This document shows, piece after piece, positions 7,777 to 17,333 of a stretch of DNA of 64,000 nucleotides. The notes under the pieces were generated by a model. That model had not been told where the DNA came from, did no database searches, and saw only the letters and a list, made by a program, of their open reading frames with translations. Source of the stretch: Gammaproteobacteria bacterium. Its GTDB lineage: Bacteria > Pseudomonadota > Gammaproteobacteria > Steroidobacterales > JABDLF01. Position 1 is the first letter of the stretch. Every line of letters starts with the position of its first letter. The DNA lies in contig JABDLF010000058.1 in NCBI GenBank assembly GCA_013003115.1, forward strand, positions 1 through 64,000, in the 5' to 3' direction. A program made the translations under genes and the position numbers.

Positions 7777-8088
7777 CTATTCCGGCAGCCGAAGGCGCCC
7801 GGTCAGGATCTGGGCAAACATGAGAAAATCGCCGAGCAGGCTGTAAAACGGATGTGTGAAGGTGGCCGGTCGGTTTTTTTCGAAGATCAGGTGACCAAGC
7901 CAGGCAAAGCCATATCCCACCACCGGCAGGAGCCAGAGCAGCTCCCAGCGCCGGCTTGCCAGGGCCAGCAGCAAAGTAAATATCGACAGGGCCGTCCCGA
8001 CAAAATGCAGCCGGCGGCAGTTAGGGTGCTTATGCTGCGAAAGGTAAAACGGGTAGAACTCGCTAAAGTTTCTGAATCGCCTCGACAA
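7777..8088 (-). CDS. DUF962/Mpo1-like membrane protein
   Basis: FSEFYPFYLSQHKHPNCRRLHFVGTALSIF...GYGFAWLGHLIFEKNRPATFTHPFYSLLGDFLMF is the conserved DUF962 pattern. Confidence 0.87.
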   Translation of the reverse strand: MSRRFRNFSEFYPFYLSQHKHPNCRRLHFVGTALSIFTLLLALASRRWELLWLLPVVGYGFAWLGHLIFEKNRPATFTHPFYSLLGDFLMFAQILTGRLRLPE

Positions 8089-8100
8089 GTCCCGCCCTCC

Positions 8101-8856
8101 TCAAGGCCCGGAAGTCACCTTGTAATTCCCGCGGCTCTTGTCATAGTCGAGCTCAAGCAACTTGTTTGCTGCGGCCTCCTTCAGCATCTCTGAGAAGCTT
8201 CGATAACCGTAGTAGGTTTCATCAAAACCGGGATGGACGCGACGCAGCGTCTGCTTTACCAGGGAGCCCCAGACCGGATCGTAGTCGGCCTCCAGAGAAT
8301 TCACGATGCCTAGCAGCATCTCCATGGCCTCATCTTTCTTGGTTTTCCTGGCCCCTTTCTTGCCGGACGGGCGGGCCTTCTTGCGAGCCTTGCGAATCAG
8401 GTCATCGTAATAAATAAACTCGTCACAGTTGGCAATGAGTAAATCCGATGTCGAACTCTTGACACCGCAACCGACTACCCGCTTGTTGTTTTCCTTGAGC
8501 TTCGAGACCAGCGGCGAGAAATCGCTGTCGCCGGAAACGAGCACAAAAATATCTATGTGATTCTTTGCGTAGCAAAGATCCAGCGCATCTACCACCATGC
8601 GAATATCTGCGCTGTTCTTACCACTCACGCGCGTCTGCGGAATGTCGATCATCTCCACGCCGTGACGATGAAACTCCTGCACTGCCGGGCGGTAGTTGCT
8701 CCAGTCGCAGTAAGCACGCTTGAACACCAGCCGGCCTTTCTCCAGAAGTCGCTTTAAGACAAGGTCGATGCGGAACCTGTCTTCCTTCATGTCGCGCGCG
8801 CCGAGGGCCAGATTCTCGAAGTCTATGAAAACGGCAATCAGCGGTTCGTTGGACAT
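8101..8856 (-). CDS. NYN domain (PIN-like, LabA/DUF88) protein with C-terminal OST-HTH/LOTUS-like domain
   Basis: IAVFIDFENLALGAR, RAYCDWSNYRPAVQEFHRHGVEMIDIPQ, KNSADIRMVVDALDLCY, LVSGDSDFSPLVSKLKENNKRVVGCG; C-term YYGYRSFSEMLKEAAANKLLELDYDKSRGNYKV. Confidence 0.88.
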   Translation of the reverse strand: MSNEPLIAVFIDFENLALGARDMKEDRFRIDLVLKRLLEKGRLVFKRAYCDWSNYRPAVQEFHRHGVEMIDIPQTRVSGKNSADIRMVVDALDLCYAKNHIDIFVLVSGDSDFSPLVSKLKENNKRVVGCGVKSSTSDLLIANCDEFIYYDDLIRKARKKARPSGKKGARKTKKDEAMEMLLGIVNSLEADYDPVWGSLVKQTLRRVHPGFDETYYGYRSFSEMLKEAAANKLLELDYDKSRGNYKVTSGP

Positions 8857-8886
8857 GATTTTACTCTGCTTGCCCGCTGCGAATGC

Positions 8887-10488
8887 TCAGGCGAGCGCTT
8901 CGTAGTCAGCAAGGCTGGCTTCGGCGTAGGAGTCCGAATGGGTGACGGGCTTAACGGGCTGGCTTATGTTGATAACGAGAAAATCGGAGGGTCGCTCATG
9001 GGCGAGCCCTACGACCACGTTGACCCGGCCTTTGCGCCGGTCTTCCTCTGTCGTCGTCTCGCGATCACACTTCACAAACCAGGCTTGCCCCGAATTAAAT
9101 TCCCCGAACGCGCCGAGGGCCTGACAGCGCAACAGAAACTCCTCCACCTTGCCCTGCAGGCGGCCCCACAGTGCCGCGTCGTTTTTTTCAAAGGCTGCCC
9201 AGCCGGTCCCCTCTCGCACGCTGTCGATGACAAGGAGCGCAAATCGACGGTTCGAGAGACTGCGCCATTCCGCCGCGGGGCAGTCAGCCCCTGCAAGCGT
9301 GCGGTCTCCCTCCAGTACGCGAATACTGCGGCCATGTGAGCGCAGGCAATTTATTCCGCTTTTGATCAGACTCTCGCACTCGTAGTCATCTACCTCGTCC
9401 GCAAATCTCCTGACGCCGCGCAGCGGCACATGAACACTGCCTGGACCGCGCCAGGGCCCCGCGTCCAGATCGCACCTGGCGAGCAAGCCGGCAACCGTGC
9501 CGCAGGGCGCAAACTCCGAACGCCCTCCCTGCAACTCGTCATCCATGATCAGCCGGGGATAAAAAATCGCCGTATTCTCGTTACTCATGCCAAGGTCGCC
9601 GAGACCCGCAATCGCGTCGTCGGGCGAGCGCCAGATGCTGGGTGGATCAGCAATGTAAATCGCCTTGTGCCTGCGACAGAATTCCGCCGCAAAATGCATC
9701 GCAGCAAAACCGAGATCGTGATTGCGCGAAAGCGGCGGCAGGCAAAGAAGATTAAACTGCGGGCCACCGATCAGAGCGTGCAGACCTGACTGCTCGCGCT
9801 CGGAGCCGATAATATCGTTGTCGCTCAGTGGCCTGCCGTCGTCGCCATCGCCCGCAGCCACCACGTAGCCACCGTCGACTCCCGATCCAAGATTATGCGT
9901 GCTGTCGGGACGCGCTCTTGGCACACCATCGCGAACTCTCACAAGCATGGAGTCGTACAGCACATCGGTGATAAAGCGCTCTGAATCGGCGCGCGTCGAT
10001 ACCCGCGGGAAGATCTCCTGGTCTTCGACGATGGCTGAGTCAATACCGCGCACGCGCTGTATGGTCAGGTTAAAACGGGTCGAAGAGTCAGGGATATTGT
10101 CGTAGTCCACGGCCGCACGCAGGAAGACGCCGCTGCCGGGATGCAGGGCTGCAAGCACAAGATAATCACTGCCTGCAGGAAGACGCAGAGTGTTGTGACG
10201 CCCGCCGTTGATGGCGCGAACAATAACTGCCTGCTGGCCACCGTTGAGGAAAAAGTGGCGAACCGCGTAGCTCATGGTGCTCGGCATCCACAGCCCGCCG
10301 AACACACGTTCAAACTGATCGAAGTTCTGGATGGCGACGGGAAAATTCGCCGGGCCGCGACGGGCGCGCCCGACAAACGCCGTCACAGAAGTGGGCGCCA
10401 TGGGGATCGACTCGGCCTCGCCGGCCCCGACCGCCACGTATATGCCGGTATCCTCCAGTTCGGACACAGCTCCTCCGCTTTTGCCCAC
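8887..10488 (-). CDS. phage/eCIS-type contractile tail sheath protein (orphan)
   Basis: N-term TSVTAFVGRARRGPANFPVAIQNFDQFERVFGGLW...AVRHFFLNGGQQAVIVRA; C-term GINCLRS...RSIRVLEGDRTLA...RRFALLVIDSVREGTGWAAFEKNDAALWGRLQGKVEEFL...AWFVKCDRETTTEEDRRKGRVNVVVGLAHERPSDFLVINI. Confidence 0.9.
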   Translation of the reverse strand: MGKSGGAVSELEDTGIYVAVGAGEAESIPMAPTSVTAFVGRARRGPANFPVAIQNFDQFERVFGGLWMPSTMSYAVRHFFLNGGQQAVIVRAINGGRHNTLRLPAGSDYLVLAALHPGSGVFLRAAVDYDNIPDSSTRFNLTIQRVRGIDSAIVEDQEIFPRVSTRADSERFITDVLYDSMLVRVRDGVPRARPDSTHNLGSGVDGGYVVAAGDGDDGRPLSDNDIIGSEREQSGLHALIGGPQFNLLCLPPLSRNHDLGFAAMHFAAEFCRRHKAIYIADPPSIWRSPDDAIAGLGDLGMSNENTAIFYPRLIMDDELQGGRSEFAPCGTVAGLLARCDLDAGPWRGPGSVHVPLRGVRRFADEVDDYECESLIKSGINCLRSHGRSIRVLEGDRTLAGADCPAAEWRSLSNRRFALLVIDSVREGTGWAAFEKNDAALWGRLQGKVEEFLLRCQALGAFGEFNSGQAWFVKCDRETTTEEDRRKGRVNVVVGLAHERPSDFLVINISQPVKPVTHSDSYAEASLADYEALA

Positions 10489-11235: not shown

Positions 11236-12144
11236 ATGAGCAGCACCAAACTCGAAAAACTTGCAGCACAGCTGGAAGCCAGCGACGCCTACCGTGTCCT
11301 CAGACGACTGGTCGACGTGCCAGCCTATAACGAGCCGGACCCGGAACTTCGGGCCAGTGGCCGATTGCGATCGGGCGTTTACATAGACGTGGAAACCACG
11401 GGGCTCGACTCCTCCACCGATCAGGTAATTGAACTTGCCTTGCTGCCGTTCGAGTTTTCGCTGGATGGTCAGATCTTCGCGGTGCACTCCGGCTATGGCG
11501 GGCTGCGAGACCCGGGCATTCCGATCCCGGCCGAGATCACGCAGCTGACCGGCATCGACGACGCCATGGTCAAAGGGCAACAACTGGACAACGGCAAAAT
11601 CGAGGCCGTGATCGAGCCGGCTCACCTTGTAGTCGCGCACAACGCGGCTTTCGATCGGCCATTCGCGGAGCAGCTCCATCCGCTGTTCGAAACCAAAGCC
11701 TGGGCGTGCTCAATAAATGACGTCCCCTGGCGAGAAGAAGGCCTGGGCGTCGCGAAGCTGGACTATCTCGCCTGTCAATTCGGCTTTTTTTATGATGCCC
11801 ACCGTGCCGGCGATGACTGCCGCGCCGGCGTACATCTGCTCAGCAAAACGTTGCCGACGAGTGGCCGACTGGTACTCGCCGAACTCCTCGACAGGGCGCG
11901 CCGCAAGACCATCAGGATCTGGGCGCTTGGCAGCCCCTTCGATAGCAAGGACAAACTCCGGGAACGAAAATATCGCTGGAATGGCGGCGAAGACGGCCGG
12001 CCAAAATCCTGGTATCGCGATATTGACGAAAGCGAATTCGACAAGGAGCTCGAGTATCTCAAGTCAGAAATCTTCTCGGGTCACCTTCCCGATCTCCCAA
12101 CCGATACGATCAACGCCTTCAATCGTTATTCCTCGCGGGCGTAG
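11236..12144 (+). CDS. 3'-5' exonuclease, DnaQ/PolIII-epsilon-like
   Basis: ExoI GVYIDVETTGLDSSTDQVIELAL, ITQLTGIDDAMV, VVAHNAAFDRPF, RAGDDCRAGVHLL. Confidence 0.87.
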   Translation: MSSTKLEKLAAQLEASDAYRVLRRLVDVPAYNEPDPELRASGRLRSGVYIDVETTGLDSSTDQVIELALLPFEFSLDGQIFAVHSGYGGLRDPGIPIPAEITQLTGIDDAMVKGQQLDNGKIEAVIEPAHLVVAHNAAFDRPFAEQLHPLFETKAWACSINDVPWREEGLGVAKLDYLACQFGFFYDAHRAGDDCRAGVHLLSKTLPTSGRLVLAELLDRARRKTIRIWALGSPFDSKDKLRERKYRWNGGEDGRPKSWYRDIDESEFDKELEYLKSEIFSGHLPDLPTDTINAFNRYSSRA

Positions 12145-13544
12145 CGCGAGCCAAACCAGGCGATCAGCAATGCAAGCAGCAACGGCAGCAGCCGCTCACT
12201 GATATCGCCAGGCGTGTCGGGACGTGAATGCAGCAGCACGGTGAGACCGAAACCTGTCACCAGGCAGGCGAGGATCGCGCCGCTGTTGACCACGCGCCCC
12301 ATGATTTTCATAAGCACCAGCGGGCCGAACGCCGAACCAACAGCGTGCCAGGCAAACAGAACACGACTGAAGATCCGGTCGGGCGCATAAATCGCCAGCA
12401 GCACGGCAAGACCGCAGACGCCACCCACCACCCAGCGCGAAGTTGCGAGCCTCGGCAAGACTCCCCGCCTGAGCTTACCCAAATCATGTGCGACCGATGA
12501 CGCCGCTACCAGCAGCTGGCTGTCTGCCGTCGACATGATGGCCGACAGTACGGCCGCAATCATGATGCCAGCGAGCACCGGCGGCATGAGCGTGTTGGCG
12601 GCAACATACAGCACCTGCTCGCCTGAGCCGGCGAACTCAAAAGTCAGGACACGGGCGCAGAGGCCAAGCAGCAGCATGCCAGCATAAACCACGATCGCCC
12701 AACCCACGGCAATCATTCTTGCCTGTCGCAAAGCCGCCTGATCGCGCAGAGCCATAAACCGGTTTACAACATGTGGCTGACCGGGGTAACCAAGACCGAT
12801 TCCCAGCGTGCCTGCAATAAAACCGAAACCGGCGATTCCTGCGTGCACGCCCGTCGCGCTGAGTTCGTGCGGCAGGCTGACCAGTGTAAGGCCCGCCGCA
12901 AGCCCGGAAAATCCGCCGGCAGCGATCAGCGCAGTCACGGGCAACACGACGGCGGTCAGCGCCATAAGCAGCCCCTGAACCGTATCGGTTACGCTCACGG
13001 CCCAGAACCCGCCAAGCAGCGTATAGAACAGAATGATCACCGCGCCCACCACGATCGCGGTGGTCGTCGACATCCCGAATGTGCTCGCAAAGGCATCGCC
13101 GGCCGCCTGGAACTGCGCCGCGATATAGAAAATAAACGAAAACAGGATGATGATGCTGGCCACCCGCACAATGAGCGGATAAAGCGCGTTTGAGCGTTCT
13201 CCGCTGATGGCGTCCGTCAAAGTCACGTAGCCGTTGGCACGGCTAAGGCGCATCAGCCCCGGTGCGATCAGGAACCAGTTAATAAGAAACCCGGATACCG
13301 TTGCCGGGAACAACCACAGTGCCGGCAGACCAAGCGCATAGGCAGCGCCACTGACGCCCAGCAGCGTCCACGCGGACGATGAGCTCGCCGACGCACTTAT
13401 TCCGGCAACCAGCGGGCCTATGCGCCGGCCGCCGAGAAAAAAGTCATCATTGTCCAGCGTTCGACGGCTTGCCCACAGACCAATAATCACCAGCAAAATC
13501 TTGTAGGCGATCAGGGTGAGCAGGATTGCCAGCGTCTTGTCCAT
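12126..13544 (-). CDS. putP: sodium:solute (proline-type) symporter, SSF family
   Basis: LGGRRIGPLVAGISASASSSSAWTLLGVSGAAYALGLPALWL and GYPGQPHVVNRFMALRD typical of PutP; about 12 TM. Confidence 0.85.
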   Translation of the reverse strand: MDKTLAILLTLIAYKILLVIIGLWASRRTLDNDDFFLGGRRIGPLVAGISASASSSSAWTLLGVSGAAYALGLPALWLFPATVSGFLINWFLIAPGLMRLSRANGYVTLTDAISGERSNALYPLIVRVASIIILFSFIFYIAAQFQAAGDAFASTFGMSTTTAIVVGAVIILFYTLLGGFWAVSVTDTVQGLLMALTAVVLPVTALIAAGGFSGLAAGLTLVSLPHELSATGVHAGIAGFGFIAGTLGIGLGYPGQPHVVNRFMALRDQAALRQARMIAVGWAIVVYAGMLLLGLCARVLTFEFAGSGEQVLYVAANTLMPPVLAGIMIAAVLSAIMSTADSQLLVAASSVAHDLGKLRRGVLPRLATSRWVVGGVCGLAVLLAIYAPDRIFSRVLFAWHAVGSAFGPLVLMKIMGRVVNSGAILACLVTGFGLTVLLHSRPDTPGDISERLLPLLLALLIAWFGSRYAREE

Positions 13545-13664
13545 TATTTTTCCAGGCGGCTTTTGCTTGTGCGCCCAACGCTAACACAGGCGTACGGCAA
13601 CCCCGCGCGTGGAGCGCTGCGTTACACTGCGGTTCCGGCAATCTGTCGGCTATGCGACTCGAGT

Positions 13665-16600
13665 ATGGCAGCCAAACAAGTAATGCGCGTCGACAAAAAC
13701 AGGGCCTGGCGATTCTGGGTAGATCGCGGCGGGACCTTTACAGACGTGATTGGAATAGCGCCGGACGGCCATGTTGAAACGCGCAAGCTCCTGTCGGAGA
13801 GAGTCGGCACGGACAGCGAGGCAGCGCTGATTGGCATCGGCGACATCCTGGGCATCGACCCCTTTGATAAAAACGAAGAACGGCAGGTTTTCGAGCTGCG
13901 CCTCGGAACAACCGTGGCCACCAACGCACTGCTGCAGAGAAAGGGCGCAAAAACGGCCCTGCTGATCACCCGCGGTTTCGGCGACGCATTAAGAATTGGC
14001 TACCAGAACCGCCCGCAACTCTTTGCACGCGAGATTCGTTTGCCAGCCCCTCTGTACTCGATGGTAATCGAATGCAATGAGCGCACAGCAGCGGACGGTG
14101 GCCTGATCGAGGCCCTGGACGAGGATGAACTTGAACGAAAACTGATCGAGGCGAAGAACGCCGGCATCAACTCGCTCGCTGTCGTGTTCCTGCATGCGTA
14201 CGCGCATTCTCACAACGAGCGCCGGGCCGCAGACCTGTCCAGGCAAATTGGGTTCAGCAATGTGTCAGCCTCCCATGAGGTGAATCCTGTTATCAAACTG
14301 GTGGCGCGCGGCGACACCACTGTCGTCGACGCCTACCTCAATCCGGTGCTGCGCGCGTATACCGAATCCATGCGTGAACAGCTTGCCAACAGACTGACCG
14401 GGCCATCCCTTTTGTTTATGCAGAGCAACGGCGGATTGACGACCGCCGGGGCATTTCGCGGCAAGGACAGCGTACTTTCAGGCCCCGCCGGCGGCGTAGT
14501 CGGCATGGTTGAGAGCGCGGCCGCCGAGGGGTTTGGCAAGGCGATCGGGTTCGACATGGGCGGCACGTCCACAGACGTTTCCATTTATGACGGGCGCTTT
14601 GAGCGCAGCGAGGAAATGGAGATCGCCGGAGCGCGCCTGCGATCGGCAATGCTCCGGATTCACACGGTCGCCGCAGGCGGGGGCTCGATACTGTCTTTCA
14701 AAGAAGGCCGGCTGCAGGTCGGCCCGCATTCCGCCGGTGCAAGGCCTGGCCCTGCAGCCTACGGAGCCGGCGGGCCGCTGACGGTTACAGATTGCAGCGT
14801 GCTGCTGGGGCGCCTGCAGCCCAATCTTTTCCCGCAAATTTTCGGCGACGACGGGCGTTCCCCACTGCAGCTTGCTGCTGTTAAACGAAAATTCGAGGCG
14901 CTCGTTGCGGAGCTGTCTGCAGCCGGCTTCAAGAGCGGTTCCCTTGAGCTGGCAGAGCTATTCCAGGATATTGCCGTGCAGCGTATGGCGCGCGCCATTA
15001 AAAAAGTTGCCCTGGACGGCGGTCATGATCTGAGCGACTTTGTTCTGGTGGCCTTCGGGGGGGCCGGGCCGCAGCATGCATGCCAGGTTGCGGATGAACT
15101 GGGAATAAGCCGAATCCTCGTGCATCCCCTGGCCGGACTGCTCTCGGCGCTTGGGATTGGCCTTGCGCCCGTCAGCTCAGTGCTTGAAAAAACGGTGCGA
15201 CTGCCTCTGGACGAGAGCGGACTCGAGTCCCTCGCCAATGAGTCGCGTGCCCTTCGCCACGAGGCACGCCGCGAGATGCAGAATCGCCTTGCAGATGAGG
15301 ACGCGACGGTGACCACCGAAACCACCGTCAAGCTTCGCTACGCCGGAACTGACACCAGTCTGCCTGTCGCGGCCGGTGATGTGCAGGCTATGCGCCGTCA
15401 GTTTGAACAGGAGCACCTCGCACGGTTTGGATTTGCATCGCCGGAGAAACCGCTGCTCGTCGAAAGCCTGATGGTGCTGGCGCAGTCCGGTTCCGGCATC
15501 GCCGCTCCGTCGCCAGCTTCAGCTGTCCCGGGCAAACCTGCAAAATGCCAGCCCGCAGCAACGCACTCGGTGCATTTCCAGGGACGCGATCTCGACACCG
15601 GGTTTTTTGTTCGCCAAAGCCTGGCGCCAAATGACAAAATCCCGGGTCCGGCGGTGATTATTGAAGACGGCGCCACTACGGTCATCGAGCCCGGCTGGAT
15701 TGCGAACCTGACGCAGACGGGTCAGCTGCTCATGACCCGGCTTGCCGAAGATGCCGCTCCTGCTGCCTTACATTTGCACGACGGTGATACCAGGGCGGAC
15801 CCGGCGCGGCTCGAAGTCTTTAACAATCTGTTTATGCATATCGCCGAGCAGATGGGCGCCGTGCTACGTAACACCGCGCGCTCGGTGAACATCAAGGAGC
15901 GACTGGATTTTTCGTGTGCCGTTTTTGACGCCGCCGGAGCGCTGGTCGCGAACGCGCCCCACATGCCCGTGCACCTGGGCTCGATGGGCGAAAGCGTGAA
16001 AGCCGTAATTCGTGACAACCCGGCCATGAGGCCCGGGGACGTCTACATGCTCAACGACCCCTATCGCGGTGGTACTCATCTGCCCGATATCACCGTGGTC
16101 ACACCGGTTTTCCTGGCCGGCGAGCGGGCACCCGATTTGTTCGTGGCGGCACGGGGTCACCATGCCGACGTTGGCGGTATCAGCCCGGGATCAATGCCGC
16201 CGCATAGTAAGCACATAGAGCAGGAGGGCGTGCTTTTCAGTAACTTTCTGCTGGTGCGCGAAGGGCATTTCAGAGAGGCCGAGCTTGCGGCCGCCTTGTG
16301 CAATCCCCCGTACCCGGCCCGCAATCCCGAACAGAACATTGCTGATCTCAAGGCACAAGTTGCTGCCTGCCGCCAGGGAGAGCGCCTGCTGTATGAAAGC
16401 GCGGGCAGATTCGGACTCGACGTCTTGCGCGCGTATCTGCAGCACATTCAGGACAACGCCGAGGAAGCAGTGCGTCACGTCTTGTCGCGTCTGGACGACG
16501 GCAACTTCGACTACCCTCTCGACAACGGCCTGCTGATTCGGGTTGCGGTGCGTGTCAATCGAAACGCGCGTGAAGCAACCGTGGACTTCAGCGGCAGTTC

Positions 16601-17333
16601 GCTTCAGCATGATGGCAACTTCAATGCGCCGTTTGCAGTGTGCCGCGCCGCGGTTCTGTACGTCTTCCGGTGTCTCGTTGACGCCCCCATTCCGTTGAAT
16701 GCCGGATGTCTCAAACCTATCAGGATTATTGCACCTGAAGGCAGCATCCTGAATCCGTATCCGCCCGCCGCCGTCGTAGCCGGCAACGTCGAAACCTCGC
16801 AGGCGATCACCAATGCCTTGTTCGGCGCGCTGGGAACCATGGCCGCCGCCCAGGGCACTATGAACAATTTTACGTTTGGCGATGAACACCGTCAGTACTA
16901 CGAAACCATTGCCGGTGGCGCAGGCGCAGGGCCCGGATTCCGGGGTGCCGACGCTGTACAGACACACATGACCAACTCCCGACTCACCGACGCTGAAGTG
17001 CTTGAGTTACGCTTTCCTGTGCGGCTGCGTGAGTTCTCGATTCGCCAGGGATCCGGCGGTGCCGGCCAGCATGCCGGCGGCAACGGCGTGACGCGGGATA
17101 TCGAGTTTCTGGCGCCCATGCAGGCCGCCATACTCTCAGGCCACCGTGACGTGCCTCCCTTTGGCCTGCATGGGGGCAAACCGGGCCGCTGCGGTCACAA
17201 TGTCCTGCGCCGAAGCGACGGGCAGCTGATCAACCTTGGCGCCACGGCCAGCGTCAAAGCAGAGCCCGGCGACCGGATAATTATAGAGACACCCGGCGGG
17301 GGTGGATTCGGCAAGCCCGATTCAGGTGCCTGA
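13665..17333 (+). CDS. 5-oxoprolinase / hydantoinase A-B fusion
   Basis: HyuA motifs [48 protein letters not shown], and HyuB motifs [56 protein letters not shown] in one ORF. Start trimmed. Confidence 0.93.

Follow-up and report, generated by a model that had tools for sequence, protein, structure and literature searches.

An orphan contractile-sheath homologue, probably domesticated for a non-injection role, in an order of Gammaproteobacteria

In a 64-kb stretch of DNA (64,000 nucleotides, hereafter the window) we found a gene that probably encodes a domesticated sheath with a non-injection role. A co-option of this kind had been proposed in an earlier note written from the letters of the window, and it emerged as the best reading, now for the whole order to which the window's genome belongs. 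Tube, gp25 and Baseplate_J genes were all absent from 91 of the 99 genomes with such an orphan sheath in our relatives set (147 genomes of the same order, all from families other than that of the window's genome). Any particular molecular job of the protein is rated much lower than this general reading.

8887..10467, minus strand: orphan eCIS-derived contractile-sheath homologue of 526 aa, identified by sequence and structure matches, with the start chosen from the RBS and the alignment

The open frame covers 8887-10488 on the minus strand and encodes 533 aa when counted from an upstream GTG at 10488. This full-length, sheath-like ORF had been described in the earlier note and is real and intact; all sheath residue numbers below follow the 533-aa count. 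Translation more likely begins at a GTG seven codons inward (10467), because GGAGGAG lies just upstream of it and the residues from there align with the N-termini of relatives. The tail sheath profile PHROG_23 matched residues 14-506 (4.7e-32), two Pfam sheath domains matched with scores under their cut-offs, and the best matches in a PDB sequence search were eCIS sheaths (9ezm, 3e-39; 8bky, 1e-38). Structure prediction, a check that the note had recommended, also gave a sheath: the AlphaFold2 monomer model (pTM 0.80, with pLDDT <50 at residues 1-24) was superposed by Foldseek on the contracted sheath of Halogeometricum borinquense (TM 0.70/0.76, E 8e-32). Sequence and predicted structure agree on a sheath fold with core N- and C-terminal domains. 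The N- and C-terminal arm segments are present in the orphans, relaxed in sequence and with low pLDDT in the monomer model. In the window's genome (2.17 Mb, 82% complete) the only match to PF04984 was this gene.

Furthermore, we searched for the remaining parts of an injection system with the tube (PF06841), gp25 (PF04965), Baseplate_J (PF04865) and VipB/TssC (PF05943) models, which represent known part families alone. The tube model had no match in the 64 kb, in line with the lack of a tube gene reported previously, and the genome-wide check suggested at that time gave the same outcome: none of the four models had a match in the 2.17 Mb that represent 82% of the genome. As a positive control, the tubes of the nearest eCIS scored 136-161 bits, well above the model's cut-off of 28. 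Among the 99 orphan-bearing genomes, a tube was found in 4 (and was thus missing from 95), gp25 in 5, Baseplate_J in 4 and VipB in 4. Over the complete relatives set, VipB/TssC was detected in 9 of 147 genomes.

A profile search (E<=1e-100) recovered full-length members of the orphan family in 302 of 396 genomes of the order, and in 188 of the 232 genomes of good quality; the gene is nearly always present as a single copy. In the relatives set a sheath was found in 102 of 147 genomes, 99 of them of the orphan kind, distributed over 11 of the 16 families and absent from f8, f12, f13, f14 and f16. The window's own family has no other member in this set. In an evenly drawn sample of the class outside the order, no further orphan was seen among the strong matches that were fetched, and each such sheath adjoins a tube gene. 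Likewise, the 25 nearest sheaths outside the orphan clade adjoin a tube; one contig (L105) ends before any tube appears. Most orphans checked score under the Pfam sheath cut-offs, and the family has therefore probably gone unnoticed among hypothetical proteins.

A tree was built from 71 sheaths by a quick search with no bootstrap; a branch with an SH-aLRT support of 100 separates the 45 orphans from the rest. Rows from the same family generally cluster, as expected under vertical descent, and the window sheath takes an unresolved position near the base of the orphan clade. With phage sheaths and other remote sheaths as the root, the orphans nested inside the eCIS sheaths. Judged from these sequences, the orphan family originates from eCIS sheaths and has been inherited mostly vertically.

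The genomic surroundings of the gene are conserved as well, which gives it a recognisable chromosomal place.

12126..17333, strand not specified: sodium:solute symporter and hydantoinase/oxoprolinase genes, synteny markers, since many relatives have them at the flanks of their orphan sheath too

In the typical order, seen over 45 loci, an L,D-transpeptidase or ACC-deaminase-like gene is followed by the sheath downstream, a convergent hydantoinase/oxoprolinase gene, the symporter and, farther away, PlsB. In the window the sheath likewise has hydantoinase, symporter and PlsB genes in its surroundings, and additional genes are interposed. An L,D-transpeptidase gene is a frequent upstream neighbour in f2, f7, f10 and f15; none turned up in the vicinity of the sheath in f4, f5, f6, f9, f11 or the window; in f10 and f15 the commonest upstream neighbour on the same strand is an L,D-transpeptidase lipoprotein gene (L063-L072, L033-L036). 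No eCIS-like cluster is conserved beside the sheath in the relatives. A conserved operon partner was rejected, since no adjoining gene is conserved across all families.

To compare conservation within the protein, columns were ranked within each group (orphan and eCIS), the eCIS set being small at about 23-26 rows. The following segments of the gene were affected:

10384..10467, minus strand: N-terminal arm, residues 8-35, tight in eCIS sheaths and relaxed in the orphan family
10054..10056, minus strand: Arg145 codon, found in all 45 orphans and in none of the eCIS sheaths compared
10018..10020, minus strand: Gln157 codon, invariant in 45 orphans and 4% in the eCIS sheaths compared
9799..10191, minus strand: central domain, residues 100-230, in which conservation rose in the orphan family
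9436..9474, minus strand: loop residues 339-351, T-D-x-x-R-G-V-W-K-A-P-A-G in eCIS and degenerate in orphans, reading CDLDAGPWRGPGS in the window
8890..8958, minus strand: C-terminal extension, residues 511-533, which follows the last sheath strand; eCIS sheaths have only a few residues there

From eCIS to orphans, the conservation rank fell from 0.68 to 0.37 in the N-terminal arm, from 0.75 to 0.27 in the 339-351 loop and from 0.72 to 0.42 in the C-terminal strand region (464-510), and it was also lower in orphans over region 352-463. The central domain, on the other hand, rose from 0.29 to 0.57 (p 1e-26). The shift holds against gammaproteobacterial eCIS alone. Inside family f7, the N-terminal arm is still well conserved (rank 0.59). 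In eCIS sheaths, 148 alignment columns reach a conservation of 90% or more; the window sheath retains 65% of them and the other orphans in the clade 39-61%, which makes it the least altered orphan of the clade. The loss of arm motifs is partial, and the C-terminal domain of the window sheath is still fairly canonical. In known sheaths the arms connect the subunits (PMC10329688) and govern contraction through their length: an N-terminal linker with two inserted residues stops contraction, and the distinct part is formed by the surface-exposed domains (PMC5797969). For close pairs that gave finite estimates, dN/dS (Nei-Gojobori) was about 0.11-0.30, and the orphan sheath gene is therefore under selection. 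A pseudogene was rejected on these values and on the full-length frames.

At its C-terminus the window sheath ends in DYEALA (8890-8904). Orphan sheaths of several families end in short small/hydrophobic tails such as ALAG, SLAG and YLSG (e.g. L063, L042, L065, L032), which may recall protease degron tails; none was seen in families f7 or f10. We also considered a self-capped subunit, which was suggested by extra C-terminal strands (499-506 and 509-516) modelled in the L032 orthologue. These strands are absent from the window model, with just two orphans in those alignments, and this candidate was dropped.

The alternative that survives best, although we regard it as improbable, is that the protein acts as a decoy or poison subunit disrupting the tail assembly of infecting myophages or acting against incoming tailocins. 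A stand-alone gene with the fold of a tail part would suit such a role, as would the identity between families, which at 29-42% for the sheath is far below that of the NYN-LOTUS neighbour described below (55-76%) or the hydantoinase (46-59%). However, the vertical, syntenic inheritance is unlike that of typical mobile defence genes, and the assembly arms, which a decoy should keep, are relaxed. The sheath also matches no PADLOC family, and a known anti-phage defence gene was discarded on that ground. The closest phages match just 33-40% of the sheath length at 24-32% identity; together with the nesting of the orphans in eCIS sheaths, this led us to reject a phage origin and a prophage or tailocin remnant.

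It is less likely still that the sheath belongs to an injection device in reduced form, with a tube and a baseplate in which no homology to the known parts can be detected. Our searches covered known part families only, which leaves room for such parts, and an ATPase, a spike, a tape measure or an unrelated tube might be encoded at other places in these genomes, but no partner adjacent to the sheath is conserved in all families, and the arms and loop that are conserved in working eCIS are the very segments relaxed in the orphans.

Two genes lie directly downstream of the sheath on the same strand:

8101..8856, minus strand: NYN-LOTUS protein of 251 aa, a neighbour only, outside any conserved unit
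7777..8088, minus strand: Mpo1-like (formerly DUF962) membrane protein of 103 aa with a TTG start, a neighbour only

The earlier note had read the three genes as one unit that might link a sheath polymer or scaffold to RNA cleavage. Its account of the parts was largely accurate. Pfam confirmed the NYN (1.6e-37) and OST-HTH (2.3e-5) domains, and the gaps are indeed 30 nt from the sheath stop to the NYN ATG and 12 nt from the NYN stop to the third ORF. The third ORF stands too, under a different name, since the Pfam family is now called Mpo1-like; its start is a TTG with GGAGG 7 nt upstream and not, as given there, an ATG. Adjacency in the relatives failed, an outcome that the note itself had named as a refutation: in 40 sheath loci, most of them covered for about 8 kb per side, neither NYN nor Mpo1 was found next to the sheath, and Mpo1 was beside NYN in none of 20 NYN loci. 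With NYN-LOTUS no neighbour of the sheath in these 40 loci, the link to RNA cleavage is not supported.

About 62 clear NYN-LOTUS orthologues were identified among the 147 genomes, and this protein is conserved far better than the sheath. Its distance from the sheath is about 16 kb in the two nearest cases, and in the others it is located elsewhere. An operon of the three genes, in which a sheath polymer or scaffold would be tied to RNA cleavage at the membrane, is consistent with the shared strand, the short gaps and terminator-like sites that are not commoner than in shuffles. A lineage-specific unit is also conceivable, given that the relatives set contains no second genome from the window's family. 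Nevertheless, adjacency is missing from all loci examined in the relatives, and the genes occur separately, with the sheath lacking NYN in f9 and most of f10 and NYN lacking the sheath in f16 and in genus g18 of f6. We consider such an operon very unlikely. The sheath has the NYN-LOTUS and Mpo1-like genes as neighbours in this lineage alone, probably with no functional tie. Gene 8101-8856 is an ordinary member of the NYN-LOTUS (LabA-like) proteins, set apart by its sheath adjacency, which among the loci examined is limited to the window's genome.

Still more doubtful is the proposal that the sheath works in trans for a system located at another place in the genome, be it an eCIS, a tailocin, a phage tail or a T6SS; the distant eCIS had been put forward previously. 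Three genomes (G006, G104 and G132) do carry a tube-bearing eCIS locus together with a separate orphan sheath. However, the eCIS loci of the order have their own, divergent sheaths, and the absence of tube and baseplate genes from 91 of 99 orphan-bearing genomes, with VipB in only 4, contradicts this proposal.

A second sheath without a tube was encountered in G020 (L053:7988-9508, contig C3). It groups with the eCIS sheaths in the tree and keeps 91% of the eCIS-conserved positions and a canonical C-terminus. A tube or gp25 was sought in this genome and none was found; L053 is a separate, independent orphaning event. In addition, IMG/VR viral contigs (L100-L106) carry eCIS-type sheath genes, most with an adjoining tube gene and some with tandem sheaths. 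These contigs are probably bacterial eCIS loci rather than viruses.

A decaying eCIS relic, to which the lost tube and baseplate genes and the relaxed arm motifs might point, is the least credible explanation in view of full-length matches in about 300 genomes, a dN/dS of about 0.1-0.3 and newly invariant residues.

For the domesticated sheath, the sequences show the following course of events. An ancestor of the order had an eCIS-type sheath, and nearly all descendants have lost the tube and baseplate genes. The sheath was retained, mostly vertically, at its chromosomal place under purifying selection, and its conservation profile was re-drawn meanwhile. The orphan is probably non-contractile: it would no longer contract around a tube, and would fold as a sheath subunit in the cytoplasm and act as a stand-alone gene product. 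Its central surface-type domain, with the Arg145/Gln157 face, may bind a partner encoded elsewhere. By analogy, we slightly prefer a static polysheath-like tube or a smaller oligomer as the acting form; a monomer seems distinctly less likely. Sheath proteins can form polymers in the absence of a tube, and a phage sheath shortened at either end retains tube formation (PMC6357053). A static polysheath is therefore conceivable, and relaxed arms are no proof of lost assembly. We give an even chance to the broader idea that, in this order, a sheath that once served injection has become part of the cell's core equipment and no longer contracts; it might form a tube or scaffold inside the cell and bind a host factor through its conserved outer face. 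If true, this would be a new use of the fold, unrelated to injection.

To our knowledge, the contractile-sheath fold is known solely as part of injection machines, and the orphan would represent its first non-injection role. A solitary sheath in about four fifths of an order, whose conserved part is now the central domain instead of the machine interfaces, would be a clear natural case of domestication. The family makes it testable what a sheath does without a tube. We found no paper on a solitary, order-wide sheath in the open-access literature, which does not prove that none exists. The fold and origin of the orphan sheath are known already; its solitary, order-wide use appears to be new.

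Among known systems, the best sequence and structure matches are the eCIS sheaths of the Streptomyces coelicolor type (PDB 8bky/9gtp) and of H. borinquense (PDB 9ezm), with which the orphan shares fold and domain order; the orphans branch within eCIS-type sheaths. The sheath genes of the nearest plasmid relatives share operons with tube, baseplate and ATPase genes, whereas the orphans are solitary and their conservation has been re-drawn. The T6SS sheath VipA/VipB is a cytoplasmic contractile sheath of distant common origin. In contrast to VipA/VipB, the orphan is a single-chain, eCIS-type sheath, and the window's genome has no VipB match. The polysheaths of the isolated phage sheath FV3 gp053 (PMC6357053) assemble free of a tube and are a possible model for the orphan. 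There, however, the polysheath is a recombinant or by-product state, whereas here the sheath is encoded by a conserved, solitary chromosomal gene.
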